Notes under the pieces: generated by a model | Seen by the model: the letters and a program-made list of their open reading frames with translations, nothing else | Database searches by the model: none | What the model was told of the DNA's origin: nothing | Program-made: the position numbers and the translations under genes | Shown here: in pieces, positions 10,336 to 43,449 of the stretch | Position numbering within the stretch: the stretch's first letter is position 1 | How the letters are laid out: each line of letters starts with the position of its first letter | Source: an uncultured bacterium | GTDB lineage: Bacteria; Cyanobacteriota; Vampirovibrionia; Gastranaerophilales; Gastranaerophilaceae | Length of the DNA stretch: 64,000 nt | Assembly: GCA_902783835.1 (NCBI GenBank) | Contig: CACZSN010000044.1 | Coordinates: 1 to 64,000 of the forward strand | Reading direction: 5' to 3'

Positions 10336-11958
10336 ATGAACGAACAAACATCCGAAATGACTTTAGAACGTGCAAGAGAAGCTCATGAACGTTGGTTAAT
10401 TAAGAATAACAAGAATGATTTAGACAAAGCAATTGAATATTATTCAAGAACACTTTGTGAAAATCCTACTATTCCGGAAAGTTATTACCGATTAGCTATG
10501 TTGCTTTGGGAAAGCGGTCAAATCGGCTTGACATCAGCCATAAACAAGTGTCAGTTGGCATTAACCGTTTCGCCGGAAAATATCAATGCACATCTTTACA
10601 CGGGATATTTTTTCAAACTTGCGGAAAAATTTGACGAAGCGGAAAAAGAATTTAAAAAAGCGATAGATATCAGTCCTATGTTTTCTTCGCGAGCAAGATT
10701 AAATTTAGGTTTATTAAATGCAGAAAAAATTCTTTCAGGCAAATTCAGATTAACTTATGCCTTAAAATCGGCTTATTACCTTACAACAGGAACACTTTTC
10801 GGGATATTGGATTATCCTTATGTGAGAATGGGCATGCAAAAAATAAGGGAAAGTTTTTCAGTTGGAAAATATCTCGTGACGGGAGCCTTACTCCAAAAAT
10901 TCGGATTAGATAAAAAAGCAATAAACACATTTAAGACAGCACAATTTGAAACGGGTCGTTCTGAAATTTTCGGAAAATTAATCGGTGATTTGGACATTAA
11001 AAACGAAAATGTTGATGCGGCACTTGAATCTTATGAAAATGTTTTAAAGGTAAATCCTCATGACAGAGAATCGTTATTAAAAAAAGCAACGATATTACAA
11101 ACATATTACGAAGGCCGTGAAGAAGAAGCAATTGAAGCATATACAAGAGCTCTCGAAACAGATGGTGACAAAGATTATATATATTATGAATTGGGTCACT
11201 TATATTTGAAAAAAAATGAGATTATTAATGCAATAACGGCATTTAAACTTGCTGTTGAAAAAGACCAAACAAATGCATTTTTCCACAATGCACTCGGATT
11301 TGCGTTGTTTACGGCAGGTCAATATGATGATGCGGAAGATCATTATCTTGTCGCAATCAATATGAATCCTGACGCGGAATGGACGGCTACAGTTTGCAGA
11401 GCTTGTGCGTTAATTTATTCCGATGTCAAAAAGAACAACGAAAAAGCAATCAGAATGTATATGCAATCACTTTCGCTTTACCCTGATTGTGCGGATACTT
11501 ATCTTTCGTTGGGTGATTTGTATTTTGACGAAGAAGATTATGACAAAGCACTTGAAAACTACACAAAATCGATTGAATTAAATCCTCAAGACCATTATGC
11601 TTTCAACAAACTTGCAACTTGTTTGTGGCAAAAAGATTTTGTTGAAGAAGCTATAATTTCTTACCGTCACGCAATTGATTTAAATCCCGATTATGATGCG
11701 GCCTATAATAATTTAGGTGCCGTGTATCTTGACGGAAAACAAATGTATAACCAAGCAAAAGATTGTTTCTTAACTGCAATTGAAAAGAATTCGGAATATG
11801 AAATGGCATATTACAATGCAGGAAGAGCATTTGAGGAGCTTGGTGACAAAATTCAGGCAGCAAAATATTATCAAAAAGCATTAGAACTTAATGAAAAGAC
11901 AAAACAAATTACGACAATTGACATACAGTCAAAAATCTTTGAATTGTTTGAGGACTAA
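10336..11958 (+). CDS. Large TPR-repeat protein (paralogue of the gene at 1930-3531)
   Basis: The 540 residues contain roughly a dozen TPR units, with a non-repeat central segment (about 135-190, with KSAYYLTTGTLFGILDYPY) in the same place as in the minus-strand paralogue. Shared blocks include AEWTATVCRACALIYSDVKK against a WTSIVAQTLGYVF block, and YNNLGAVYLDG near the end. There is no signal peptide or membrane helix, so it is probably a cytoplasmic protein-protein interaction scaffold. RBS GAGGCG precedes the ATG. The stop overlaps the stop of convergent aroA by bases 11955-11958, with no terminator between them, so the two transcripts must overlap. Confidence 0.87.
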   Translation: MNEQTSEMTLERAREAHERWLIKNNKNDLDKAIEYYSRTLCENPTIPESYYRLAMLLWESGQIGLTSAINKCQLALTVSPENINAHLYTGYFFKLAEKFDEAEKEFKKAIDISPMFSSRARLNLGLLNAEKILSGKFRLTYALKSAYYLTTGTLFGILDYPYVRMGMQKIRESFSVGKYLVTGALLQKFGLDKKAINTFKTAQFETGRSEIFGKLIGDLDIKNENVDAALESYENVLKVNPHDRESLLKKATILQTYYEGREEEAIEAYTRALETDGDKDYIYYELGHLYLKKNEIINAITAFKLAVEKDQTNAFFHNALGFALFTAGQYDDAEDHYLVAINMNPDAEWTATVCRACALIYSDVKKNNEKAIRMYMQSLSLYPDCADTYLSLGDLYFDEEDYDKALENYTKSIELNPQDHYAFNKLATCLWQKDFVEEAIISYRHAIDLNPDYDAAYNNLGAVYLDGKQMYNQAKDCFLTAIEKNSEYEMAYYNAGRAFEELGDKIQAAKYYQKALELNEKTKQITTIDIQSKIFELFED

Positions 11959-13235
11959 TCTTTTGTAATTTTGCTCATTAATTCCTGAAATTCCGGGAAA
12001 GAAGTATTTACCCACTCAAATTCTTTGATTAATAACGGTTGTTGAGTTATTAAACCTGCAACATAAAAGCTCATAGCCGTTCTGTGGTCGTGATGTGTAT
12101 CAATCTCGATACCGCCCGTTAATGAGGTTTTGCCGTTAATAATCATACCGTCGGGACGCTCTTCAATATCTGCCCCGATTGCTTTGAGTTGGCTTACAAT
12201 CGTCGAAATTCTGTCTGATTCTTTATTTCTCAAATCAGATGCATCTTTAATGACCGTGGTACCTTCTGCCTGAGTTGCAAGAACGGCAATCACGGGAATT
12301 TCGTCAATCAATCTCGGAATGTCCGCTCCTTCTATTGTTGTACCCTTTAAATCGGAATATGAAACTTTGATGTCTGCAACAGGTTCTCCTGAAATGTTGC
12401 GTTCATTCAAAAGCTCAATATTTGCTCCCATTCGTTTAAATACATCAATAATTCCTGAACGGGTATGATTTACACCGACATTTTCAATAATTATTTCTGA
12501 ATTTTGAACAATTGCAGCGGCAACCATAAAAAATGCGGCAGAAGAAATATCTCCGCAAACTTCCATGTCCTTGGGAGTTAAAATGCACGGTCTGATTGAA
12601 GTTGAGGTCAAAGAATTTTCCACAATATCGGCCTCAAGATACTTGAGCATTAACTCGGTGTGGTTTCTTGATTGATAAGGCTCATTGACAGTCGTAATAC
12701 CGTCTGCAAACATTCCAGCAAGCAGCACAGCAGATTTAACCTGAGCTGATGCAAGCGGAGAATTATAAGTAATTGCGTGAAGTTTTCCGCCTGTAATTTT
12801 AAGAGGTGCTTTATAGTTGTTATGACTGAATTTTGCCCCCATTTCAGTCAAAGGAGAAATTATTCTTTTCATCGGTCTCTTACTCAAACTTGCATCACCG
12901 AAAAGGGTGGAATTAAAAGGTTGTCCCGCAAGTATTCCCGACATCATTCTCATTGTCGTACCTGAATTTCCGCAATCCAAATCGGAATTCGGAGCCTTTA
13001 GGGCATTTTTAGCATTGATTGTTAAATCCATATCCGTGTGAAATTTTACTTCGCAACCTAATTGTTGCAGAATTTTCAACGTTGAATGACAATCAGCTCC
13101 TTTTGAAAAATTTTTAATATTTACAACACCTTTTGTAAGTGAAGCAAACATAGCGGTTCTGTGACTTATAGACTTATCCGGAGGGATAACAATATTACCT
13201 GTTAATTTTTTTGCATTTTTAGTTTTGTAATCCAT
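11955..13235 (-). CDS. aroA: 3-phosphoshikimate 1-carboxyvinyltransferase (EPSP synthase)
   Basis: AroA joins shikimate-3-phosphate and phosphoenolpyruvate to form EPSP, the sixth step of the shikimate pathway. The 426 residues are a normal length. PPDKSISHRTAMF (about 18-30) holds the PEP-binding Lys, Ser and Arg. GNSGTTMRMM (about 93-102) and LFGDASLSKRPM are the other signatures, and ESDR near residue 340 is the second-domain motif. It is the last gene of a probable trkA-trkH-aroA operon, 10 bases after trkH. No other shikimate gene is in the window. Confidence 0.96.
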   Translation of the reverse strand: MDYKTKNAKKLTGNIVIPPDKSISHRTAMFASLTKGVVNIKNFSKGADCHSTLKILQQLGCEVKFHTDMDLTINAKNALKAPNSDLDCGNSGTTMRMMSGILAGQPFNSTLFGDASLSKRPMKRIISPLTEMGAKFSHNNYKAPLKITGGKLHAITYNSPLASAQVKSAVLLAGMFADGITTVNEPYQSRNHTELMLKYLEADIVENSLTSTSIRPCILTPKDMEVCGDISSAAFFMVAAAIVQNSEIIIENVGVNHTRSGIIDVFKRMGANIELLNERNISGEPVADIKVSYSDLKGTTIEGADIPRLIDEIPVIAVLATQAEGTTVIKDASDLRNKESDRISTIVSQLKAIGADIEERPDGMIINGKTSLTGGIEIDTHHDHRTAMSFYVAGLITQQPLLIKEFEWVNTSFPEFQELMSKITKD

Positions 13236-13245
13236 TTTGTACTCT

Positions 13246-14709
13246 TTACTTTTTGATGTAATAAAAATCAGGGTGTAACAATGCTAAAAAAGGTATCAAT
13301 TCAAGACGTCCGATTAGCATGTTGAAAATAAAAATAATTTTTGTAGAAGTTTGCAGGAAATCGAAATTTCCCATCGGACCTAAAACCCCAAGTCCAGGTC
13401 CAATGTTGCCAAGAGAAGCGATAGCACCCGTGCAGCCGATTGTAATATTATGTTCAATCATGGTTGAAATAAATGCGGTAATTGCAAATATTCCGAAATA
13501 GAAAATTACAAATGACATCATTTGAGCCATAATTTCATTCGGAACCGTAGAACCGTTTACCCGAACCGGAACAACAGCATTCGGATGCAGAATTTTAAAC
13601 AATTCACGTCTGATGTATTTATAAACAAAAACGAGTCTTATAATCTTCAAACCGCCTGATGCGGAACCTGCACAAGCCCCCGTGAATAATAAAATTGCCA
13701 AAATCATTTGTGCAGCAAACGGCCAGGTTGTATAATCCACAGTCGCAAATCCCGTAGTCGTAATGACAGATATCGTTTGAAATAAACTTTCTTCTATTGC
13801 AGTCGAAAAATAATACGTTTTTCCGAAAAACAATATCAACATAATAGCCAAAGCACAGAATAATGTTACCGAAAGATATGTAAAAAATTCATCATTTTTA
13901 AACAAAATTCTTATTCTTTTTTGAACAAAAACCCGATACAACATCGAAAAACCGGTTCCCGATAAGAACATGAAAAATGCAATAACCCAAACAAATTGAG
14001 GATTGTTATAACCGATTATGCTGTCAGGGTTGGGAGAAAATCCGCCGCAAGAAATTGTGGACATAGCATTACAAATCGCATCATATAACGGCATTCCCAT
14101 AAATTTCAAAATAATAATCAATACAACCGTAAAAGCCGTATACATATTCCATAAAACAGCCGCCGTGGATTTAACACGGGGAGTGAACTTTCCGTCCGTC
14201 GGTCCGGGAGATTCTGCCGAAAACATTTGACGACCAGCAACCGCAAATTGAGGCAAAATTGCAATAAACAAAACGATAATTCCCATACCGCCTAACCATT
14301 GAGTAAATGATCGCCAAAAGAACATCGTCTTGGGATACATCGAAAAATCCGTCAAAATTGTAGAACCGGTAGTAGTAATTCCAGAAACAGCTTCAAACAA
14401 AGAATTTACGGGACTCAAGCCGTAAAATAAATACGGAATCATGGAAATAAAAGACATTATTATCCACGAAAATGCAACCGTACCAAGTGCTTCAACCTTT
14501 TTAAAATCATTCAGCAAATCAGGTTGAATACGTTTAGGGTTAAGAGAAAAGCCTATAATCAAATTAACCAAAAGCGTTACGGCAAAAGCGATTGCGGAAG
14601 AATAATCTTTAAAATACAAAGCAACGGCAATAGGAACTAACATAACAATCGTCATGTATTTTAAAACCAAACTTATTGCCACTGCCAAAAAACGTAATCT
14701 CATAGCCAC
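13246..14709 (-). CDS. trkH: Potassium uptake channel subunit TrkH/KtrB
   Basis: This is the membrane ion-conducting subunit for K+ uptake, gated by the cytosolic TrkA. The 487 residues hold about ten hydrophobic helices in four M1-P-M2 repeats. Filter regions include SGITTTGST, TISCGGFS and VITTTGFATVDY, and WLGGMGIIVLFIAILP follows the first pore. The GTG start at 14709 directly follows the stop of trkA, and an ATG two codons later (14703) is the alternative. There is no separate RBS, so translation is probably coupled to trkA. The fourth pore loop (SLGNIGPGLG) is intact, so it should be functional. Confidence 0.94.
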   Translation of the reverse strand: MAMRLRFLAVAISLVLKYMTIVMLVPIAVALYFKDYSSAIAFAVTLLVNLIIGFSLNPKRIQPDLLNDFKKVEALGTVAFSWIIMSFISMIPYLFYGLSPVNSLFEAVSGITTTGSTILTDFSMYPKTMFFWRSFTQWLGGMGIIVLFIAILPQFAVAGRQMFSAESPGPTDGKFTPRVKSTAAVLWNMYTAFTVVLIIILKFMGMPLYDAICNAMSTISCGGFSPNPDSIIGYNNPQFVWVIAFFMFLSGTGFSMLYRVFVQKRIRILFKNDEFFTYLSVTLFCALAIMLILFFGKTYYFSTAIEESLFQTISVITTTGFATVDYTTWPFAAQMILAILLFTGACAGSASGGLKIIRLVFVYKYIRRELFKILHPNAVVPVRVNGSTVPNEIMAQMMSFVIFYFGIFAITAFISTMIEHNITIGCTGAIASLGNIGPGLGVLGPMGNFDFLQTSTKIIFIFNMLIGRLELIPFLALLHPDFYYIKK

Positions 14710-26895: not shown

Positions 26896-27522
26896 ATGGA
26901 ACAAGAAAATAAAGAAATAGCAAAACAGAGAATATTGAAGGTTGCGACAAAACTGTTTGGACAAAAGAGTTTTGACGGAGTAAGCATTCGGGAAATATGC
27001 AAAGAAGCAGATGTAAATGTTTCGATGATTTCGTATTATTTTGGAGGAAAGCAAGAGCTTTACAACGCAATTTTGTCAGATTTAGTAAAAAGGCAAACTG
27101 AATTTGAGGAAACGATTTGTAACATATATGGAAACCCTTTCGAGCTTGAAAGAGATATGCAGATTGACATTTTGTATAAGCTTATTGACAGGTCGATTGA
27201 CTTTTTCTATTCAAATATTACGGGAGATATGATTTTATTTTTGGTCAAAGCCCAACAAAGCCCAGACTTTAAGATGACGACACCTGCTTTTGAATTTTTA
27301 AAAAAGTTACTCGCTTCAATTTTGCACATCAAAGAAAATTCGAAGGAGTTAGTCTTTAAAATGCTTACAATAATCTCTTTTATTAATTCACATAAAATTA
27401 TGCAGGGTATTTCACTTCGCCAACTTGGGCAAGAGGATTTTACCGAAGAAGATATTAAAATAATAAGAAGTAATTTGAAAAATTATTTGAAGATGTTAAT
27501 AAAGGAGTCGGACATTGTTTAA
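26896..27522 (+). CDS. TetR/AcrR-family transcriptional repressor
   Basis: The 208 residues have an amino-terminal helix-turn-helix (about 8-55): QRILKVATKLFGQKSFDGVS, then IREICKEADVNVSMISYYFG. The ligand-binding half is variable. The gene heads the operon, follows a perfect palindromic operator, and its end overlaps the next gene by eight bases. The layout parallels E. coli CecR-YbhGFSR, where CecR represses a similar exporter. The ligand is unknown. Confidence 0.92.
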   Translation: MEQENKEIAKQRILKVATKLFGQKSFDGVSIREICKEADVNVSMISYYFGGKQELYNAILSDLVKRQTEFEETICNIYGNPFELERDMQIDILYKLIDRSIDFFYSNITGDMILFLVKAQQSPDFKMTTPAFEFLKKLLASILHIKENSKELVFKMLTIISFINSHKIMQGISLRQLGQEDFTEEDIKIIRSNLKNYLKMLIKESDIV

Positions 27523-28831
27523 AAAGTTATTTATAATAATTGTTTTAACAGCAATAGCTCCTTGTAGTTTTGCGATGAATAGGGAAGAATTGAACATAGA
27601 TTTTTTCTCAAAATTCAACGATGATTGCCTTCCTTTTTACATAAATTCAGCATTAGAGAACAATCACGAATTAAAAAAAGCGGAGAAGGTTGTAGAACAA
27701 TACAGGCAGCAGGCTAAAATTTCTTTGGGAAAAGAATTACCATCTTTGAACGTCAGTGCAAACTATTTGGGAGTTCATGTTCCTAAATTAGATAATTTTC
27801 AATTAACTAAAAATGCCTTTGTTTTACCGTTTTTTGCTAATTACGAAGCTGATTTTTTGTTAAAAAACAGGGATAAAACAAGAAGTGCAAATAAAGCCTA
27901 TGAAGCAAGTCAAGAAAGAGAAAAGGCTGTTTTTATCGCACTTTTAACAGATGTGGCAACGGTATATACAAATATTATGCAATACGACGAATTGATAATA
28001 ATTGCACAAGAAAATGCTGCGATTGCCAATAACATTTTCAAATCCGACGAACGGAAATTGAAACGCGGAACAATCAGCATAACACAATACAATAACTCAA
28101 AAAACAGAGTTGAAACAGCTAAAAACAATCTTATAAATTTAGAAAAACAAAGAGATATTTTGCTGATGCAACTTGCCGTACTTTCAGGGATTTCTCCCAA
28201 TGAAGCGAAAAATTTGCAAAGAGGAACGTTAGATGATTTTGAATATTGTGAGAAAATTCCGACTGAAATTTCATCTGATGTAATTTTTAGTCGCCCAGAT
28301 GTTCTTATGGCGGAAAAGAACCTTGAAAAAGCGAAAATCGATGTGAGAGTAGCCCGAAAAGAATTTTTGCCTACTTTCAATATAACGGGAGTCTGGGCAT
28401 TTAATACGATAGCATCAGGAACGTTTTTTTCTTGGGAATCATCACTTGCTGCACTTTTAGCAGGAGCGGCTCAAGATATTTTTACGGGCGGAAGAAAAAT
28501 TGCCAATCTGAAATTGAAAAAAGCAAAATACGAAGAATTATTTGAAGAATATAAACAGACTGACTTAATTGCGGTAAAAGAAGTCAACACTGCACTTTGC
28601 CTGATAAAAAATGACAGAAGTACAGAACTTAATACAACATCAAAACTTCAAAATTCACTTGGTAATTTAGACAATTCAAAGAAAAAATTGAAAAGAGGAA
28701 TAATTTCAAATCCCGAATATTTAGCGGAATTATCCGAATTTTTAAAAGTTCAAAATGAATTTGTGCAACAAAAAACGCAGAGAATAACTGATTATTACAC
28801 ACTTTATAAAGCGGTCGGAGGACAACTATGA
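27515..28831 (+). CDS. Outer-membrane efflux factor (TolC family)
   Basis: The outer-membrane channel of a tripartite pump. The TTG start at 27515 has AAAGGAG eight bases upstream and leads straight into a signal peptide (about 1-21, ending PCSFA). The 438 residues contain two OEP repeats of coiled-coil helices (SALENNHELKKAEK near the start, and ARKEFLPTFNITG in the second half, with YxxLYKAVGGQL at the end). Some TolC-family members carry a lipid-anchor cysteine; here a Cys lies at about 17 within APCSFAM, but it is not in a clear lipobox. It overlaps tetR and the next gene by 8 and 4 bases. Confidence 0.92.
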   Translation: MFKKLFIIIVLTAIAPCSFAMNREELNIDFFSKFNDDCLPFYINSALENNHELKKAEKVVEQYRQQAKISLGKELPSLNVSANYLGVHVPKLDNFQLTKNAFVLPFFANYEADFLLKNRDKTRSANKAYEASQEREKAVFIALLTDVATVYTNIMQYDELIIIAQENAAIANNIFKSDERKLKRGTISITQYNNSKNRVETAKNNLINLEKQRDILLMQLAVLSGISPNEAKNLQRGTLDDFEYCEKIPTEISSDVIFSRPDVLMAEKNLEKAKIDVRVARKEFLPTFNITGVWAFNTIASGTFFSWESSLAALLAGAAQDIFTGGRKIANLKLKKAKYEELFEEYKQTDLIAVKEVNTALCLIKNDRSTELNTTSKLQNSLGNLDNSKKKLKRGIISNPEYLAELSEFLKVQNEFVQQKTQRITDYYTLYKAVGGQL

Positions 28832-29667
28832 AAAAAATATTGATATTGCTATTAATAATAATTGCAGCCGGAGCAACAGCATTTTACCTGTTTACCAACA
28901 AAAAACCGACCGACGAGTTGACATTGTTCGGAAATATTGAAATACGTCAAGTTGATTTAAGTTTTCAAGTTTCCGGTCAAATAGCAAAAATGTTGAAAGA
29001 AGAAGGCGATAACGTTAAGGCAGGCGAACTTATCGCAGAACTTGACAATAAAGATTACAAATCAAATTTGGCCAAAGCAACTGCAGAAGAAGCTAAAACA
29101 CTTGCTCTAAGCAAAGATGCCAATTCAAAATACGAAAGAAATTACCCTCTTTGCTCAGACGATACAATTTCAAAACAAGACTGTGACAGCTTTGTAAACA
29201 ACAAAGATAAAGCAAATGCAGACTATCAATCAGCAATTGCACAAAAAACATTTGCAAAAAACCAACTTAATTACACAAAACTTTATGCCCCCGAAGAAGG
29301 AACAATAACGGTAAGAGTCCAAGAAAACGGAGCAACAGTAACAAAAGGACAACCCGTTTATACAATGGCAAAAACCCATCCCGTGTGGATTAGAGCTTAT
29401 GTTAACGAAACAGATCTCGGAAACATAAAATACGGAATGAAAGTAAAAGTTTTAACAGACACTATTAATCCAAATACAGGTGAACAAAGAGTTTACGACG
29501 GACAAATCGGATATATCTCTCCCGTTGCTGAATTTACTCCAAAAACCGTACAGTCAACAGACATAAGAACAAGCCTTGTTTACAGAATAAGAGTTTATAT
29601 TCAAGATACCGACGAATTTTTGAGACAGGGAATGCCGACAACAATTAAAATAGATTTGAAATCGTAA
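28828..29667 (+). CDS. HlyD-type membrane-fusion protein (YbhG-like)
   Basis: This periplasmic adaptor links the ABC transporter to the outer-membrane factor. The 279 residues start with a membrane anchor (about 3-21). Biotinyl-lipoyl-like halves are visible at SFQVSGQIAKMLKEEGDNV (about 51-69) and in the YAPEEGTITVRVQENGATV segment (about 152-170), with a short coiled-coil hairpin between (about 80-145) containing two cysteines, one in CSDDTISKQDCDS. A beta-barrel follows. The ATG overlaps the stop of the preceding gene (ATGA). Confidence 0.93.
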   Translation: MKKILILLLIIIAAGATAFYLFTNKKPTDELTLFGNIEIRQVDLSFQVSGQIAKMLKEEGDNVKAGELIAELDNKDYKSNLAKATAEEAKTLALSKDANSKYERNYPLCSDDTISKQDCDSFVNNKDKANADYQSAIAQKTFAKNQLNYTKLYAPEEGTITVRVQENGATVTKGQPVYTMAKTHPVWIRAYVNETDLGNIKYGMKVKVLTDTINPNTGEQRVYDGQIGYISPVAEFTPKTVQSTDIRTSLVYRIRVYIQDTDEFLRQGMPTTIKIDLKS

Positions 29668-36467: not shown

Positions 36468-37532
36468 TTAAACTTGGCAACCGTCTTCGTTTTGTTTGTG
36501 TTCTTCTTCGTATTTTCCAAACGAAGCATATTCGTACGGAATAAAATCATAATTCGGGAAATCTTGTTCATTATTAACAAAATATCTCGCTGAATTATAC
36601 AATATAATTTGCAAACCTAATTCCGTTGCACGCTCATGCATAAAAGAAATTACATCACGGGCATGTTGCGGGAAAGCAGCTTTTTCTCTTTGTCGCTTAA
36701 ACCATTCGTGTTCAATATCGATTACAATAGAACGAGCACCGCATTCATACGTCATATTCAGCCATTTTTCAGCCTCTTCAATATTGTCATTGATATTAGG
36801 CATTATAATGTATTTTGTCGCAACCAACGGAATATTATTAACATTTTCAGCTTCCGCATATCGACGAACATTTTCGACAACTTTATCGTATGCATCAACA
36901 TTTTTTATTTTTCTGAAAGTTTCTCTTGAGCCTGAATCAAGTGACAACACAACATCAACGATTCCTGCACTGATTCCTCTTGCAATAGCAGGCGAATATT
37001 TGATACCGGAAGTATGAATAATAACTTTAGGAACTTTCTTTTCCACAAGCAAATCAAGTAATTCTTCAAATTCATCAAGAATTGTCGGTTCTCCGCCGGC
37101 AAATGTTATTTCCCCACCGCCTCTGAATAATTTTTTATCAAACATATCTTTTACAACCGGCAAAACATTGTAATAACGTTGTTTATTGAAAAAGTCCTTA
37201 TTGTAATCCGTAAAGCAGTAAATACATTTACAATTACAATGTGTCCAATGGTTAAAGTGAAGATAATTGAAATAATGATCTTCATCATCCCAATTTTTTT
37301 CCCATAAATTGAAACAACCTTCGCATTTCGGATTAATTTCTCCACGTTTATTTTCGTCAACAAAAGCCTTTTTGAGTTCAAAAATTTCGTCCCAATCCAA
37401 AGGTTCACCGTTATAAGGCTGTTTAACATACAAATTTCCGCCACCGACATGACATCTTAAACAACACATTTCAATGTGTCCCGGCTCAAAATTCATACCA
37501 TGTGTTATCCAATTACAACTGTTATATTTCAT
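36468..37532 (-). CDS. Radical SAM enzyme with amino-terminal cysteine set, paralogue A
   Basis: The 354 residues hold a radical SAM core with CX3CX2C at C99-C103-C106 and an extra C101 (HCNCKCIYC), followed by GGGEITFAGGEP, a SAM-binding motif at about 139-150. Ahead of it is a conserved block: C6, then HGMN (11-14), C23C24 plus C27, GGG (30-32), LDWDEIF (45-51) and CEGC (70-73). The five shared cysteines could hold a second iron-sulfur cluster amino-terminal to the core, the reverse of SPASM proteins, where extra cysteines are carboxy-terminal. AAGGAA precedes the ATG. The substrate is unknown. Confidence 0.9.
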   Translation of the reverse strand: MKYNSCNWITHGMNFEPGHIEMCCLRCHVGGGNLYVKQPYNGEPLDWDEIFELKKAFVDENKRGEINPKCEGCFNLWEKNWDDEDHYFNYLHFNHWTHCNCKCIYCFTDYNKDFFNKQRYYNVLPVVKDMFDKKLFRGGGEITFAGGEPTILDEFEELLDLLVEKKVPKVIIHTSGIKYSPAIARGISAGIVDVVLSLDSGSRETFRKIKNVDAYDKVVENVRRYAEAENVNNIPLVATKYIIMPNINDNIEEAEKWLNMTYECGARSIVIDIEHEWFKRQREKAAFPQHARDVISFMHERATELGLQIILYNSARYFVNNEQDFPNYDFIPYEYASFGKYEEEHKQNEDGCQV

Positions 37533-37562
37533 AATTTTTCCTTTGAATTTATAACTGAATTT

Positions 37563-38546
37563 TTATGCTTGTTGTGCAATTTGTGCGTCTTTTTGACGTT
37601 TTTCTTCGAGCATATGTGCCGCACGTTCATATACCCCGTATAATAATCCTCTATTCAATGCACCTTGTTTTGCATATTCAAACAAGTCATATATATATTG
37701 AGGAACTCTGTCCCGTCTTGCATAAAACCATTGTGATTCAATTTCCTGTAAAACATGCCCGATACCGCACTCAACTGCTTTATCAAGCCAACTGTCAATT
37801 TCCGCCTTTGTATCATTTACCCCCGGAATAACAATGTATTTTGCCATTACAAGTTCGGGGCGTTGTTGAACAGATGCATATCTCTTCAAATTTTCCCAAA
37901 CTCTGTCATAAGTTTTTACCTCTTTTATAAGGGCATGCATTTCTTCCGTTCCGGAATCAACAGAAACAATTAAATCAACTTTTCCTCTGCGTAAGCCGTC
38001 TTCTATAACTTTTGAATAATCAATACATCCCGTATGAATTCGGATAAAATAGTCGTAATCGAGAAAAATTTGTAAGCATTCTTCAAATTCTTTGAGCAAA
38101 CAAACTTCTCCGCCTCCAAAACTTACGTCTCCGCCTCTTATCAAAAGATTTTTGGAAATCATATCTTTTAAAATAGGCAAAAAGTCATAATTTTTTTTCG
38201 TATTATAAATATCTTTTTTGTTATGTGTATGACAATAAATACAATTGCAATTGCAATATGTCCAATAATCAAGGTTAAAGAAATTAAATTGGTCGGACTC
38301 CTCCCAATCACGTTCTTCCAAATAAATACAACCTTCACATTTATGGTATGTTCCGCCTGATTTATGCAAATCTTTTATTTCTTTTTTAAAAGCAAAAAAT
38401 TTGTCCCAATCAATCGGACCGCCTTGATAATTTTCAATAACTTTTGTGTCTCCGCCGCCTTTTGCACTATATTGGCAACAAAGTTTTATTGAATCGATGT
38501 CAAAGTTTATTCCGTGTTCTATTTTTGTGCAACTTTTATAAATCAA
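37563..38546 (-). CDS. Radical SAM enzyme with amino-terminal cysteine set, paralogue B
   Basis: The 327 residues align end to end with A and C: C6, HGIN, C23C24, GGG, IDWDKFF, CEGC (70-73), and the core cluster C98, C102 and C105 with extra C100 (YCNCNCIYC), then GGGDVSFGGGEV in place of GGEP. C27 of A is absent (S27). The start is TTG at 38546, with GGAG ten bases before it, overlapping the stop of paralogue C by four bases. The GGEV variant is a small change in the SAM-contact loop. It lacks the acidic tail of A. Confidence 0.88.
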   Translation of the reverse strand: MIYKSCTKIEHGINFDIDSIKLCCQYSAKGGGDTKVIENYQGGPIDWDKFFAFKKEIKDLHKSGGTYHKCEGCIYLEERDWEESDQFNFFNLDYWTYCNCNCIYCHTHNKKDIYNTKKNYDFLPILKDMISKNLLIRGGDVSFGGGEVCLLKEFEECLQIFLDYDYFIRIHTGCIDYSKVIEDGLRRGKVDLIVSVDSGTEEMHALIKEVKTYDRVWENLKRYASVQQRPELVMAKYIVIPGVNDTKAEIDSWLDKAVECGIGHVLQEIESQWFYARRDRVPQYIYDLFEYAKQGALNRGLLYGVYERAAHMLEEKRQKDAQIAQQA

Positions 38547-39565
38547 TGTCCGTATTCTCCACGATGAATATTCATATCATTTGCTCGGTCATACAACTCA
38601 CAGCGTATCATTCCGAGTTCTTTCGCTTTATTTACACCGTAATCAATAAGATCATAAATATGTTGAGGAACTTCGTGTTTATGCCACTGATACCAACCGC
38701 CTTCAATGTCAAGCACAATCCATCTTACACCGGCATCAACAGTAAGTTCAAACCATTTTTCAAGTTCTTCAAACGTGTCATTATACCCCGGAATAATAAT
38801 AAATTTCGTTCTTGCCAAGCCTTTATCTTTTGTTTGGGCATCCGCATAACGTCTGATATTTTCCCAAACTTTATCAAATAAAGGTACATTTTTAATCTTC
38901 TTATAAGTTTCTGCCGTACCTGCATCGGGAGAAACAACAACATTTAATATTCCTTCGGAAATTCCTCTTGCAATAGCAGGTGAATACTTAATTCCCGAAG
39001 AATGAACTCTGATATTATCCATGCCCGCATCAATAAGCAAATTGACAAGCGGTTCAAATTCATCCAAAATTGCAGGTTCACCGCCACCGAAACCGACTTC
39101 TCCGCCTGCTCTTAACTGTTTTCTTTCGGCAAGTTCTTTAATTTGTTCAAAAATCGGATAGTTAGGACGTTTTGCAAATTCTTCAAAGTTTTCGGAAGTA
39201 AAGCAATAGTTACACTTGCAATTACATCTTGTCCAATGATTGAAAACCATAAAAGATATATAATCTTCATCATCCCACTCACGTTCTTTCAGGAAGAAAC
39301 AACCTTTGCATCTGTCAAGAGTAATGCCTTTCTTGTTGAGTTCACGCATTTCCCGTTTTTCTGCAAAAAATTTATCCCAATCAATTTTTTCACCGTAATA
39401 ATCAGGGATTAAAATCTGACGTCCGCCACCTTCATGGGTATTCATACAGCACATTTTAATGTCTTCATAATCAGCATTAAAACCGTGTTGAATGTATTCA
39501 CAACTCAAATAGCGGTGCTTCGACTTGTTCTTATTAAACATATCTTTTATGCTTTGAAAATTCAT
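38543..39565 (-). CDS. Radical SAM enzyme with amino-terminal cysteine set, paralogue C
   Basis: The first gene of the triplet, 340 residues. A 16-residue Lys-rich leader precedes the block seen in A and B: C22, HGFN, C39C40, GGG, IDWDKFF, CKGC (86-89), the core C114, C118 and C121 with extra C116, and GGGEVGFGGGEP. A strong GGAG lies eight bases before the ATG. C starts the probable operon C-B-A and, with a 75-base gap, the MATE gene. The nearest upstream minus-strand gene ends in its own terminator at 39664-39689. Confidence 0.9.
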   Translation of the reverse strand: MNFQSIKDMFNKNKSKHRYLSCEYIQHGFNADYEDIKMCCMNTHEGGGRQILIPDYYGEKIDWDKFFAEKREMRELNKKGITLDRCKGCFFLKEREWDDEDYISFMVFNHWTRCNCKCNYCFTSENFEEFAKRPNYPIFEQIKELAERKQLRAGGEVGFGGGEPAILDEFEPLVNLLIDAGMDNIRVHSSGIKYSPAIARGISEGILNVVVSPDAGTAETYKKIKNVPLFDKVWENIRRYADAQTKDKGLARTKFIIIPGYNDTFEELEKWFELTVDAGVRWIVLDIEGGWYQWHKHEVPQHIYDLIDYGVNKAKELGMIRCELYDRANDMNIHRGEYGH

Positions 39566-39663: not shown

Positions 39664-39689
39664 AAAAAAAAGACCTCTTTCGAGGTCCT
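39664..39689 (-). terminator. Terminator of the first CHAP protein gene
   Basis: GACCTC (39672-39677) and GAGGTC (39682-39687) around TTTC, followed on the minus strand by eight Ts (39664-39671). Confidence 0.9.
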
Positions 39690-39699
39690 TTTATTAAAT

Positions 39700-41451
39700 T
39701 TATGAAACAATGTCTGAAAGTTTGATGAAACCTGTAAGAGACTTGTCATAAATACTTTTCTTATTTGACTTAACTTGGTCGCTTGAGTTACCTTCAACGG
39801 TTGTGAATGTTCCGTCTGATTTAATTGATTTAACGATACCAGTGTGAGAAGCACCGTTGCTTTTCCAAATGATAACATCGCCGACTGACAAGTTATTTTT
39901 AGCGTAATCAAGTTTTTGGTTGTTGGACATTTTTGATGTGTTATCGAATACACCGTTCTTTTGTGCCCAAGACATAAGATTTGATACTGCCGGTGAACCG
40001 AAGCCTGAAGCAACTTTAAGACCGTTTTCTTTAGCATATTCTTTTACTACGTATGTTACGAAGTCTGCACACCAAGATTCAGTTCTTCCGTTTGTAAACA
40101 TTTTATATGAGCCGTCTTTTTCGTTGATACCCATATATTTGCTTGCAAGGTCAACCAAACCGCTTCCGACGTCATTAGCCATTTTACCTTTGTTTACACC
40201 GGCTTGTTTAGCTTCTTTCTTTTGTGCTTTTTCTTTTGCTTCGATTTTTTCATCAATCTTAGCTACATCTTTTGTCTTTTGTGCTTTCAATTCTTTGATT
40301 GAAGAATTCAAAGAATCAATTTTCTTGCCAAGAGAAGGACTTTGTTCGCTAATTTGTTTTTCAACATTCTTAACGTTCTTTTGTTGTTCTTTTTCTTGTG
40401 CTTGTAATTTTGTTATTTTAGCTTCTTCGTTCTTAATTTTTTCTGAAAGTTTTGTTTTCTTTTCTTTCTTTGCTGTTAAAGACTCTTTGATTTTTGATAA
40501 TCTTGATTTGTTTTCTTTATTAACTTTTGAATTTTTTGTATCTGTCTTAAGTTGACCTTTTTCACCTTCAAGAGCGGCAATACTTGCTTCCAAATCAGCT
40601 AAGCTTGCTTTGTGAGTTGCTAATGAAGATTGAGTGTCTGACAATTTTGATTGGATATCAGACAATGCTTTTTGTTGAGATGAATATTCAGCTTTGAGTT
40701 CTGAACTGATTTTGTTATCATCTGCGATTAGTTTATCTTTTTTGCTTTGTTTTTGTTCGATTTTCTTATCTGCATCTGAAATTGTTTCTGATCTTTGTTT
40801 TCTCAATTCTTCAACTTCATCAGCCGCAGTTTTTGTTTGAGTTTTTGAACTGCTGTTTGTGCCTGAGTTGTAGTTTGAGTTTGACCTTGAAGTTGAACCG
40901 CTTGTGCTGCCTGCTGATGAAGAAGAACTTGCGGAAGAAGTTGATTTAGGAGCTGATTGTGCAAGAAGTTTTTGTTCTGCAAGATCATCTTCAACTCTTT
41001 GGAAAGCTTCTTTAATCAATTTTTCCAAATCTGATTCAGTTGTTACGCTTATTGAATCAATAAATTCATCAATATCATTTTGAGTAAGGCTTGTAGCATC
41101 ACCGTCATAACCTGCAAGGTTTTGCATAAATGCTTTAGCTTCATCTTCCGAAACACCGTCAACACCATCAGTATCAGCAAGTTCTTGAACTTGGTCATTT
41201 GACATTAATGATTGGAAGATTGATGATAAATCTCCGTTCTTTGCTTTGTTTGCAGAATCTGCTTTACCTGAAGTTAATGCATCTATTGCCGAAGTGTAAT
41301 CAAAATTTTCAAGATTTGAGAAACTAATGTCATCAAAAATTGAAGTGTTTGATTTTGTCGTACTTGAAGAAAAGTAATCGGCAGATGTCTTGGAACTGTT
41401 AGCTTGTTCCAATCTTTTCAATATGTATTTTGATACATCTAAGTTTGCCAT
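39700..41451 (-). CDS. EF-hand-like, coiled-coil, CHAP-domain protein (paralogue 1)
   Basis: ATG 41451 gives 583 residues; the frame extends to 41481 but the paralogue at 41568-43370 begins with the same MxNLxxxxYxLK pattern. There is no signal peptide. An acidic DTDGVDGVSEDEA loop (about 95-107) looks like an EF-hand Ca site, followed by a Ser-rich linker (about 170-205), a long Lys/Glu/Gln coiled coil (about 215-430) and a carboxy-terminal CHAP domain (about 450-575). The CHAP catalytic Cys is in SWCADFV, the His in ASHTGIV, and EGNSS follows. CHAP domains cut peptidoglycan peptide bonds. How it would leave the cell is not evident. Confidence 0.85.
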   Translation of the reverse strand: MANLDVSKYILKRLEQANSSKTSADYFSSSTTKSNTSIFDDISFSNLENFDYTSAIDALTSGKADSANKAKNGDLSSIFQSLMSNDQVQELADTDGVDGVSEDEAKAFMQNLAGYDGDATSLTQNDIDEFIDSISVTTESDLEKLIKEAFQRVEDDLAEQKLLAQSAPKSTSSASSSSSAGSTSGSTSRSNSNYNSGTNSSSKTQTKTAADEVEELRKQRSETISDADKKIEQKQSKKDKLIADDNKISSELKAEYSSQQKALSDIQSKLSDTQSSLATHKASLADLEASIAALEGEKGQLKTDTKNSKVNKENKSRLSKIKESLTAKKEKKTKLSEKIKNEEAKITKLQAQEKEQQKNVKNVEKQISEQSPSLGKKIDSLNSSIKELKAQKTKDVAKIDEKIEAKEKAQKKEAKQAGVNKGKMANDVGSGLVDLASKYMGINEKDGSYKMFTNGRTESWCADFVTYVVKEYAKENGLKVASGFGSPAVSNLMSWAQKNGVFDNTSKMSNNQKLDYAKNNLSVGDVIIWKSNGASHTGIVKSIKSDGTFTTVEGNSSDQVKSNKKSIYDKSLTGFIKLSDIVS

Positions 41452-41512
41452 TATTTTACACTTACACCTTTCATGTTTCATGTCGGCAATTTAGATGATT
41501 TCTTTAATAAAT

Positions 41513-41546
41513 AAAAAAAGATTGTAACGAAATTGTTACAATCTTT
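41513..41546 (-). terminator. Terminator of the second CHAP protein gene
   Basis: GATTGTAAC (41520-41528) pairs with GTTACAATC (41535-41543), with a seven-T run on the minus strand (41513-41519). Confidence 0.88.
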
Positions 41547-41567
41547 AATTCTTACTTTCTTAAAATT

Positions 41568-43370
41568 CTATGATAATTTTACATAACCAAGAATGTTACC
41601 GCTGTTTCTTTTCTTGGAAGCTACTTGGCTTCCTGAGTTATTACCCGAAGTATTACCTTCGATGGTTTCAACTGTTCCGTCTCCGTTAACACCGATTACA
41701 TAACCGATGTGATCAGCATTTCCGTCGCCGTCCCAGTCAAACAATACCGCATCACCTGCTTGAGCTTGTTCCGCACCGACAAATGCATTATTTGCCTGAG
41801 CATTTCTCATAATGTCGGGGCAATATGCTCTGTTACAATTTTTGTACCAATCAGGAAGATTTTCTTCTCCAATTGTTTGGCTTGCGATGAAGCTTACGAA
41901 ATCTGCACACCATGCTCCGTTATCGAATTGATAACCTTTAGCTCTCATGATTTCACGCATTTCGTCTTGAGTTTTGCCTTCAAATTGTTTTGCGAGATCA
42001 ATAACGTCATCACCGGAGAGGAATGAATTTTCCTTCATGAATCCGTCACGTTCTTCTTTTTGTTTTGCATCTTGAAGTTGAACGTTCAATTCTTGAATTT
42101 CGCTTCTGAGTCCTGCAACGGTTTGTTCTTTTTGAGCACGAATGTCAGCGATTTTTGTATCATATTGAGCAATTTGTTGCTTCATTTGTTCAACAGCTTG
42201 TGAAGAACCTACTCCTTTTGCAAATCCTGCTGAATCATCCAAAGTTTTTGACAAAAGTTCTTGTTTTTGAGTTTCAAGTTGTTGTTTTTGAGTTTGAGCA
42301 GTTTGAACCGCTTCTTTTTCTTTTGCGTTTTCTTCTTCTAATTTTTTGTTATCTTCTTGAACTGATTGTAATTTTGCTTCAAGATTATCAATTTTTTGTT
42401 GAATTTCTGATTTTTTAGAAGATGCATTTTCATCATCACCGGAAACTGCACCTAACGCTGTTTTGTTATTTGCAATTTGTGATTCCAAAGAGCTGATGTA
42501 ATTGCTGTTAGAAGAAATTGTAGCTTCATTTTGAGAAATCTTTTCGTTATGACCGTCTATTTCCTTATCTTTTGCGGTAATATTGTCTTCTAATTTCTTT
42601 TCTTGTTCTTTGTAAACTTCGTATTCTTTTTCAGAAACACCTGCTTGTTCCATAGCGGTTTTCTTAGCTTCTTCTTGCTCTTCAATTTGAGCTTGAGCAT
42701 CTTCTTCCGCTTTGGTTATTTCGCCTTCTTTGTCTTTAATTTTTTGTTCTAATTCATCAACCGTTTCGGCAGTTGTTTTTGTTTGATTAGCGTTGTTAAC
42801 GGATGAACCGTAATTTCCGCCTGATGAATAATTGCCGCCTACGTTACCTGAAGTTCCGTTAGTGTTTGCAATTTCTTGATTTTTCTTTGTATCTTCAATT
42901 GCTTCTTCTTCGTCAAGACCGAGAGATTCTTCAATTGCTTTATCAATTTCATCATTCAAATCAATATTTAACGATTGAATAACAGTATCCAAATCGTCCA
43001 TTGTCAAATTTGTCAAATCACCGTCAAAAGCCATTGCACTCTTTAAAAATTCAAGGGCTTCATCTGCATCTAAATCACCGCTTTTGTCTGTATCGGCAGC
43101 TTGAACAACACCGTCAACGTCCAAAAAAGCTTTAACCATTTCAGCCAATGCTTTTTGGTCTGCTGATGCGTTTTCATCAACTGCATCAAGTGCATCATCG
43201 GAAGCCAATAATTTTTCGATATCAAGATTTTTTAAATCTTCAATCGTTGCAGAATCAAATGCCGAAACATTTTGATATTGTTCAAATTTGTTAGCTGTAA
43301 GAGTTCCGAAAGAAGAACCGTCAAGGGCAATCTTCTTTAATAAATAGCTATTAAAATTTAAGTTTGTCAT
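41568..43370 (-). CDS. EF-hand, coiled-coil, CHAP-domain protein (paralogue 2)
   Basis: The 600 residues share the order of the neighbour: an amino terminus MTNLNFNSYLLKKIALD, a canonical-looking EF-hand loop DTDKSGDLDADE (about 98-109), a Gly/Ser/Asn linker (about 170-195), a coiled coil (about 200-455), and a CHAP domain (about 460-600). The CHAP Cys is in AWCADFVSF, the His in ADHIGYVIG, and the third site near EGNTS. There is no signal peptide here either. The gene has its own terminator and a divergent gap before nadA. Each CHAP gene is therefore a separate transcript of duplicate origin. Confidence 0.85.
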   Translation of the reverse strand: MTNLNFNSYLLKKIALDGSSFGTLTANKFEQYQNVSAFDSATIEDLKNLDIEKLLASDDALDAVDENASADQKALAEMVKAFLDVDGVVQAADTDKSGDLDADEALEFLKSAMAFDGDLTNLTMDDLDTVIQSLNIDLNDEIDKAIEESLGLDEEEAIEDTKKNQEIANTNGTSGNVGGNYSSGGNYGSSVNNANQTKTTAETVDELEQKIKDKEGEITKAEEDAQAQIEEQEEAKKTAMEQAGVSEKEYEVYKEQEKKLEDNITAKDKEIDGHNEKISQNEATISSNSNYISSLESQIANNKTALGAVSGDDENASSKKSEIQQKIDNLEAKLQSVQEDNKKLEEENAKEKEAVQTAQTQKQQLETQKQELLSKTLDDSAGFAKGVGSSQAVEQMKQQIAQYDTKIADIRAQKEQTVAGLRSEIQELNVQLQDAKQKEERDGFMKENSFLSGDDVIDLAKQFEGKTQDEMREIMRAKGYQFDNGAWCADFVSFIASQTIGEENLPDWYKNCNRAYCPDIMRNAQANNAFVGAEQAQAGDAVLFDWDGDGNADHIGYVIGVNGDGTVETIEGNTSGNNSGSQVASKKRNSGNILGYVKLS

Positions 43371-43449
43371 GATTCAATCTTTCTTGTTTCACTTACCTAC
43401 AATTACTAAATCGGCAAAAATGCATGTTTCTTTAGGGTTTCCGCGATTT

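Follow-up and report, generated by a model that had tools for sequence, protein, structure and literature searches.

Sigma-28 (FliA) serves to make the late flagellar substrates in flagellated bacteria, and some of the Cia proteins of Campylobacter jejuni are also under its control. According to the passages of PMC2764114 drawn on here, the flagellar type III secretion system (T3SS) of C. jejuni exports non-flagellar proteins by way of an N-terminal sequence. Non-motile Buchnera carry flagellar basal bodies, with the export genes kept and no filament (PMC8109811, in the part cited), and the non-flagellar T3SS of Myxococcales, with a core locus that lacks a secretin, has been interpreted as an intermediate rather than a product of decay (PMC3459982, likewise in part). 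Here we describe a tandem pair of genes, encoding proteins A and B, in the first 64,000 nt of contig CACZSN010000044.1 (the window), from a metagenome-assembled genome (MAG) of the Gastranaerophilales. This order, the gut sister group of the photosynthetic cyanobacteria, dwells in humans and animals and has hardly been cultured. We propose, at a probability of about 0.6, that a filament-less flagellar-type T3SS exports these predicted peptidoglycan hydrolases and that their conserved N-terminus is the signal. The flagellar-type route is named here; an initial annotation, made from the letters of the window, had proposed no such route.

The locus resembles the C. jejuni case in having a flagellar-type export core, sigma-28-type control and proteins without a Sec signal (the C. 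jejuni export sequence being N-terminal in the cited part of PMC2764114). Unlike C. jejuni, which keeps a full flagellum, no filament or L-ring was detected here, FlhA falls in a second clade, and the proposed cargo consists of modular wall hydrolases and protease-like proteins. With Buchnera it shares basal body and export genes without a filament, known here from genes; however, relatives within the Gastranaerophilales hold the second system beside a complete flagellum, which marks it as a separate, paralogous system, and a candidate regulon of cargo genes can be seen. As in Myxococcales, the T3SS core has no secretin in its locus, but the Myxococcales system is without FlgB, FlgC, FliE and FliG, whereas FlgB, FlgC and FliE are present here. 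FlgJ and SltF are flagellar wall hydrolases, and the proteins described here are likewise predicted wall hydrolases, proposed to be tied to a flagellar export system, with glucosaminidase and SLT types among them. They differ in that no FlgJ rod-binding domain occurs among their Pfam matches, that a genome holds several of them, and that they have a long coiled coil and a loop of EF-hand type.

Partial flagellar gene sets have been reported from gut Melainabacteria, where the sections cited take them as reduction and non-motility (PMC3787301 and PMC4040986, from 2013 and 2014). The term 'type III' is absent from the main texts of both papers, and a literature search with the names of the group returned no paper giving Gastranaerophilales a T3SS against neighbours or host. 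If our proposal is true, a conserved machine for export, coupled to a sigma-28-controlled set of cargo, would account for the persistence of flagellar genes in non-motile species, would supply a testable effector set for Gastranaerophilales and would add a new data point on the transition from flagellum to secretion system.

Two CHAP proteins and their N-terminal family

A and B both lie on the minus strand and share one order of parts, namely an N-terminal module, an EF-hand-type loop, a low-complexity linker (Ser-rich in A), a coiled coil and a CHAP domain. This common order, described in the initial annotation, was borne out by open reading frames (ORFs), Pfam, loop and coiled-coil analysis:

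41451..39700, minus strand: gene of protein A, 583 aa from the ATG at 41451
43370..41568, minus strand: gene of protein B, 600 aa
40996..41451, minus strand: conserved N-terminal module of A, the proposed export or targeting module (family alignment; profile match in own genome)
42915..43370, minus strand: conserved N-terminal module of B (family alignment; profile match; structural model)
41140..41175, minus strand: EF-hand-type loop of A, DTDGVDGVSEDE, partly degenerate
43059..43094, minus strand: EF-hand-type loop of B, DTDKSGDLDADE
42030..42761, minus strand: predicted coiled-coil region of B, residues 204-447, four long helices (204-242, 247-308, 316-379 and 390-447)
39787..40086, minus strand: CHAP domain of A (Pfam)
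41652..41924, minus strand: CHAP domain of B (Pfam)

The two proteins are 25.5% identical over their full length (E = 1e-34) and are, by sequence, old and diverged paralogues. CHAP (PF05257) matches the pair with E-values of 2.6e-11 and 7.3e-12 (44.3 and 46.1 bits against a cut-off of 26), and the site residues are kept, with Cys, His and Glu intact in both (C488/H554/E571 in B; Cys461/His536 in A), as the initial annotation had stated for Cys and His. By curated score and catalytic Cys/His, A and B are predicted to be CHAP peptidoglycan hydrolases. NCBIfam gave coiled-coil and weak matches only, and a search of solved structures with B returned a single coiled-coil match (E = 0.005). The best Foldseek match of the full-length model in the PDB was PcsB of Streptococcus pneumoniae, which has a coiled coil followed by CHAP, as here; the match is weak (E = 4.5e-3, TM 0.14-0.22) and is kept as a likeness only. 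PcsB belongs to monoderm bacteria, is exported through Sec and, unlike A and B, has no EF-hand module.

A profile search of the own genome, bearing on a check for same-motif proteins that the initial annotation had suggested, returned four members of the N-terminal family including A and B. The other two form a tandem pair on contig 14 (L029:9882-11711 and 11862-13802) and have C-termini other than CHAP, such that the four members end in CHAP, CHAP, a glucosaminidase-like and a lysozyme/SLT-like domain. The sister genome G003 holds eight matches to B, of various enzyme types. Across 22 family members the N-terminal module and the coiled coil are constant while the C-terminal enzyme varies, with Pfam (E <= 0.01) identifying CHAP in 7, Glucosaminidase in 4, Amidase_6 in 3, SLT_2 in 2, and SLT and Esterase in 1 each. 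A conserved N-terminus joined to varying C-termini fits a delivery or targeting module.

The alignment of the 22 members gives the N-terminal motif M-x-F/L-x-x-Y/F-L/I-x-K. The start MxNLxxxxYxLK that had been noted for A and B is present in both, but 'MxNL' is particular to the pair and its orthologues, and the family motif is broader. Both proteins have a 12-residue loop of EF-hand type, a loop in which positions 1, 3, 5 and 12 are expected to be acidic, albeit partly degenerate in A; in the 22 members position 1 of the first acidic loop is D (20) or N (2) and position 12 is always E (22/22). Pfam support for an EF-hand is weak for the pair alone (EF-hand_1 in B at E = 0.25, no match in A), and EF-hand_7 matches 6/22 members. 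Structure prediction, also suggested in the initial annotation, models the N-terminal module of B as a small helical domain (pLDDT 82.8; residues 21-23 below 50), for which Foldseek against the PDB returned no known fold at E <= 0.001.

Sec-like signals were judged by the maximum hydropathy over 12 residues within the first 60 residues, in the 22 members and in four signal-bearing controls. No Sec-like segment was found in any of the 22 (maxima of 0.38-1.29, compared to 2.0-3.07 in the controls). An upstream ATG at 41481 opens the longest ORF of A, and the 10 extra residues bring in no hydrophobic core. The scan agrees with the initial annotation, to which no Sec or Tat signal had been visible.

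Sigma-28 promoters and a candidate regulon

The family genes are preceded by TAAAG-N14-GCCGATAA. The sigma-28 (FliA) consensus is given as TAAAGTTT-n11-GCCGATAA in the cited part of PMC2859248, and A and B each have a promoter of this type:

41480..41506, minus strand: sigma-28 (FliA)-type promoter of A, TAAAG-N14-GCCGACAT, 11/13 consensus bases
43408..43434, minus strand: sigma-28 (FliA)-type promoter of B, TAAAG-N14-GCCGATTT, 11/13 consensus bases

At the exact sigma-28 spacing, at least 11 of the 13 core bases were found ahead of 15/22 members, compared to 7 of 4,400 dinucleotide shuffles; allowing a spacing of 14 or 15 brings the count to 19/22. Among 285 other listed genes in the related loci, nine reach the promoter mark in a wider search window, three of these being further family genes. 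A sigma-70 scan gave 11 sites against 11.1 in shuffles. FliA itself is encoded in the own genome (TIGR02479 above the curated cut-off, G000:C46:32630-33292).

The own genome has 8 exact sigma-28 sites, and an ORF of at least 70 aa starts within 150 nt of every one of them. These ORFs encode a member of the family, two calpain-type proteins, of which one has an EF-hand, one HD-domain protein, three unknown proteins and one transporter resembling the major facilitator superfamily (MFS). Near-exact sites precede two more calpain-like proteins, one HExxH protein (named by eye) and one protein with RTX-like repeats. Signals are lacking in the calpain-like proteases, the HD protein and the EF-hand protease. 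Nine non-transporter proteins of the regulon were scanned for hydropathy, and a segment of signal-peptide strength was absent from all nine. S, T, N and Q make up a mean of 0.38 of their first 30 residues, compared to 0.23 in 113 background proteins; the enrichment over this background has p = 3.6e-5 for the nine regulon proteins and p = 6e-7 for the 22 family members.

Two of the sigma-28-linked proteins deserve separate mention. A 600-aa protein (L096:871-2670, minus strand, own genome) has an HExxH-like stretch and no Pfam match, and a 312-aa protein (L094:2440-3375, plus strand, own genome) carries RTX-like repeats. A conserved motif with two start-stop codon pairs, ATGTAAGTGTAA, is found in the 5' leader of most family genes, downstream of the sigma-28 -10 box and ahead of the coding sequence (window positions 43396 and 41465, minus strand, for the pair); this pattern, chosen post hoc, occurs in 20/22 family members and 6/183 background genes.

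A flagellar-type export machine with a second FlhA

An operon on the contig of the window (G000:C44) encodes FliI, FlhA, FliH, a protein in the FliG position, FliF, FliE, an SLT protein, FlgC, FlgB and two FlgF/G-like rod proteins. The SLT protein is without a signal and occupies the FlgJ position, whilst Pfam gives no match for the one in the FliG position. FliR, FliQ, FliP, FliO and a 388-aa C-ring protein with two SpoA (FliMN_C) stretches are encoded elsewhere in the genome, and FlhB also lies outside the main operon. The rod and export core of FlgB, FlgC, FliE, FlhA, FlhB, FliP, FliQ, FliR, FliI and FliF is present, with the FlgB match at 19.8 bits falling just under its cut-off of 20.7.

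Flagellin (PF00669) was found neither in the own genome nor in any of the five genomes of the genus. The comparison set comprised 59 genomes, own included, of which 24 are without flagellin. Among these 24, FlhA occurs in 22 (20 full length, 2 fragments) and FlhB in 23, whilst the L-ring gene FlgH (PF02107) is absent from all, including the own genome. Of hook-type genes, a search for Flg_bbr_C gave a single gene in the own genome, which is FlgC, compared to 3-9 per flagellin-positive genome; FlgD, FlgL, FliD and MotAB were not searched. The machine is flagellar in type by virtue of FlgB, FlgC and FliE and is not a flagellum, as no filament, L-ring or hook was detected. A C-ring protein with two SpoA domains is the SctQ type of injectisomes, and the 388-aa protein is of this type. 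An injectisome has a secretin in the system and no FlgB, FlgC or FliE (PMC3459982, in the part cited), which does not describe the genes found here; a pure injectisome was rejected because these rod genes are present.

The FlhA of the own genome falls in a clade apart from canonical FlhA (split support 100/100). Flagellated relatives hold two FlhA genes, and six genomes gave one to each of the two clades. Therefore, the system of the non-motile species is not merely a remnant of the flagellum but a second system, retained by most relatives. This second FlhA scores 424.7 bits against flagellar FlhA and 403.4 bits against a full-length SctV-type PDB chain ('Low calcium response protein'), compared to 559 and 447 bits for the canonical FlhA of a relative; the near-equal likeness of the second FlhA to both could also be caused by a long branch.

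Building on this, we hold at slightly under even odds a broader interpretation, in which the Gastranaerophilales would possess a second, order-wide flagellar-type T3SS with rod, gate and two-SpoA C-ring and without a hook, L-ring or filament of its own. Sigma-28 would be given over to a secretome of hydrolases and proteases in the non-motile lineages, the system would count as a third T3SS type, intermediate between flagellum and injectisome, and it would be the same as the incomplete flagella reported since 2013.

Two further proteins touch on this machine. A stand-alone 495-aa protein (L085:6686-8170, plus strand, own genome, G000:C7) matches the cytosolic half of FlhA only (PF00771 positions 321-655, E = 5.7e-43), with similar partial matches in most relatives, and is possibly a detached docking platform for export. 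Between fliQ and fliR, a 114-aa protein (L168:6278-6619, minus strand, G000:C6) has a Sec-like signal by eye and no Pfam match, and is a candidate periplasmic or outer-membrane part of the export system.

Proposed export route, alternatives and neighbouring features

We propose the following route. RNA polymerase with sigma-28 would transcribe A, B and the other cargo genes. The export gate FlhA-FlhB would then read an N-terminus composed of M-x-F/L-x-x-Y-L-x-K, a polar, poorly ordered stretch and the helical module with its EF-hand-type loop. The hydrolase would pass unfolded, and calcium outside would aid its folding, leaving the enzyme harmless inside the cell. The coiled coil may set the reach of the catalytic domain or keep it inactive until release, and the swappable C-termini (CHAP, glucosaminidase, SLT-like, Amidase_6 and esterase) would give a set of wall-cutting enzymes, whose targets are most likely neighbouring gut bacteria or shed wall material. 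The suggestion in the initial annotation that the shared N-terminus could be an unrecognised export signal thus gains support from an N-terminus kept over varied C-termini, from the sigma-28 promoters and from the flagellar-type machine; export itself we infer.

Several observations weigh against this proposal. The outer membrane is its weakest link, in that the export loci encode no outer-membrane ring and the single secretin is encoded on a different contig, in unrelated surroundings; with that secretin distant and FlgH absent, a periplasmic end is possible. The N-terminal family occurs in just 32/146 genomes of the order, whereas FlhA is nearly universal, and therefore the machine cannot exist for this family alone. 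The set of 22 members includes orthologues, such that its rows are not independent, and both the S/T/N/Q test and the leader pattern were picked after the sequences had been seen. The gene absences rest on a MAG at 92% completeness, although all five genus genomes agree. Seven family genes from other genera, two of them already within the 22, were checked for the promoter, and it was absent from six (L159, L160, both genes of L161, L164 and L165; genera g8 and g52), the sole bearer being that of G035 (L163). The link to sigma-28 is therefore confined to genus g1 and G035, and the idea that sigma-28 governs the N-terminal family throughout was rejected. One exact sigma-28 site precedes the MFS transporter, which is no cargo. 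Lastly, the pattern with two mismatches occurs 126+118 (244) times compared to 105+100 (205) in the backward control; as this barely exceeds the control, weak sites count for nothing and only exact and near-exact sites are informative.

The main rival to secretion outside the cell, in our view unlikely, is that the hydrolases are assembly helpers which, like FlgJ, reach the periplasm through the same apparatus and there cut the wall of their own cell, either to let the rod pass or to remodel it, with nothing leaving the cell. The presence of FlgB, FlgC and FlgF/G-like proteins without FlgH would suit a channel ending in the periplasm, the signal-less SLT protein in the FlgJ position of the operon is consistent with such a task, and no immunity gene was seen adjoining A or B. 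However, the operon thereby already has an SLT protein of its own, the eight matches to B in G003, of several enzyme types, are far above assembly needs, and neither the esterase-type member nor the protease-like sigma-28 partners have a part in wall boring.

Endolysins act through lysis, and A and B could likewise be cytoplasmic autolysins or bacteriocin-like enzymes freed by bursting cells, with sigma-28 only timing their synthesis. The initial annotation had named action in the cytoplasm or by lysis as the alternative to export; we consider this improbable. The lack of a Sec- or Tat-like signal would suit it, and the CHAP parts match phage endolysin families, B sharing its catalytic domain with phrog_21357 (E = 3.5e-19). 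But the phage likeness is limited to that catalytic part: B is matched by only 3 of 50,697 phage records, over 16-21% of its length, corresponding to just its last fifth, and no homologue over the whole length was among them. No phage gene is evident nearby by eye, the surroundings being chromosomal housekeeping genes, and release by bursting needs no conserved N-terminal module with swapped C-termini. A phage lysin was rejected as the principal explanation since the CHAP part alone matches phages. Equally improbable in our judgement is export of A and B by another secretion route (type I, IV, VI or VII), sigma-28 control then being incidental. Such systems are known to include proteins in which an N-terminal module and a coiled coil precede exchangeable toxic C-termini, for example the LXG proteins of type VII; TolC- and HlyD-like genes, named by eye, lie within the window at 27515-29667, and family members without sigma-28 promoters exist. 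On the other hand, no type I, IV, VI or VII system was linked to the genes, markers of such systems not having been searched, and no LXG domain occurs among the Pfam matches listed for the pair and the 22 members, with type VII markers likewise not searched. Moreover, gut Melainabacteria are reported to be without a type I system (PMC3787301, in the part cited).

The remaining features around the pair are two hairpins:

41517..41546, minus strand: terminator hairpin after B, followed by a T-run and lying close upstream of the A promoter (the hairpin scan flagged it on this strand)
39664..39687, minus strand: hairpin after A followed by T8 (hairpin 39687-39672 flagged by the scan on the plus strand only; the eight T by sequence)

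Each gene had been described as having its own terminator, which stands for B, whilst for A it relies on a hairpin flagged on the other strand and the T-run read from the sequence. A chimeric ORF at L030:8980-10692 (minus strand), in which a radA-like gene is fused to unrelated sequence and which includes a stretch of unknown residues, points to misassembly or contamination of that MAG contig. Directly downstream of A, at 36468-39565 of the window on the minus strand, lie three tandem paralogous radical SAM-like proteins, named by eye.

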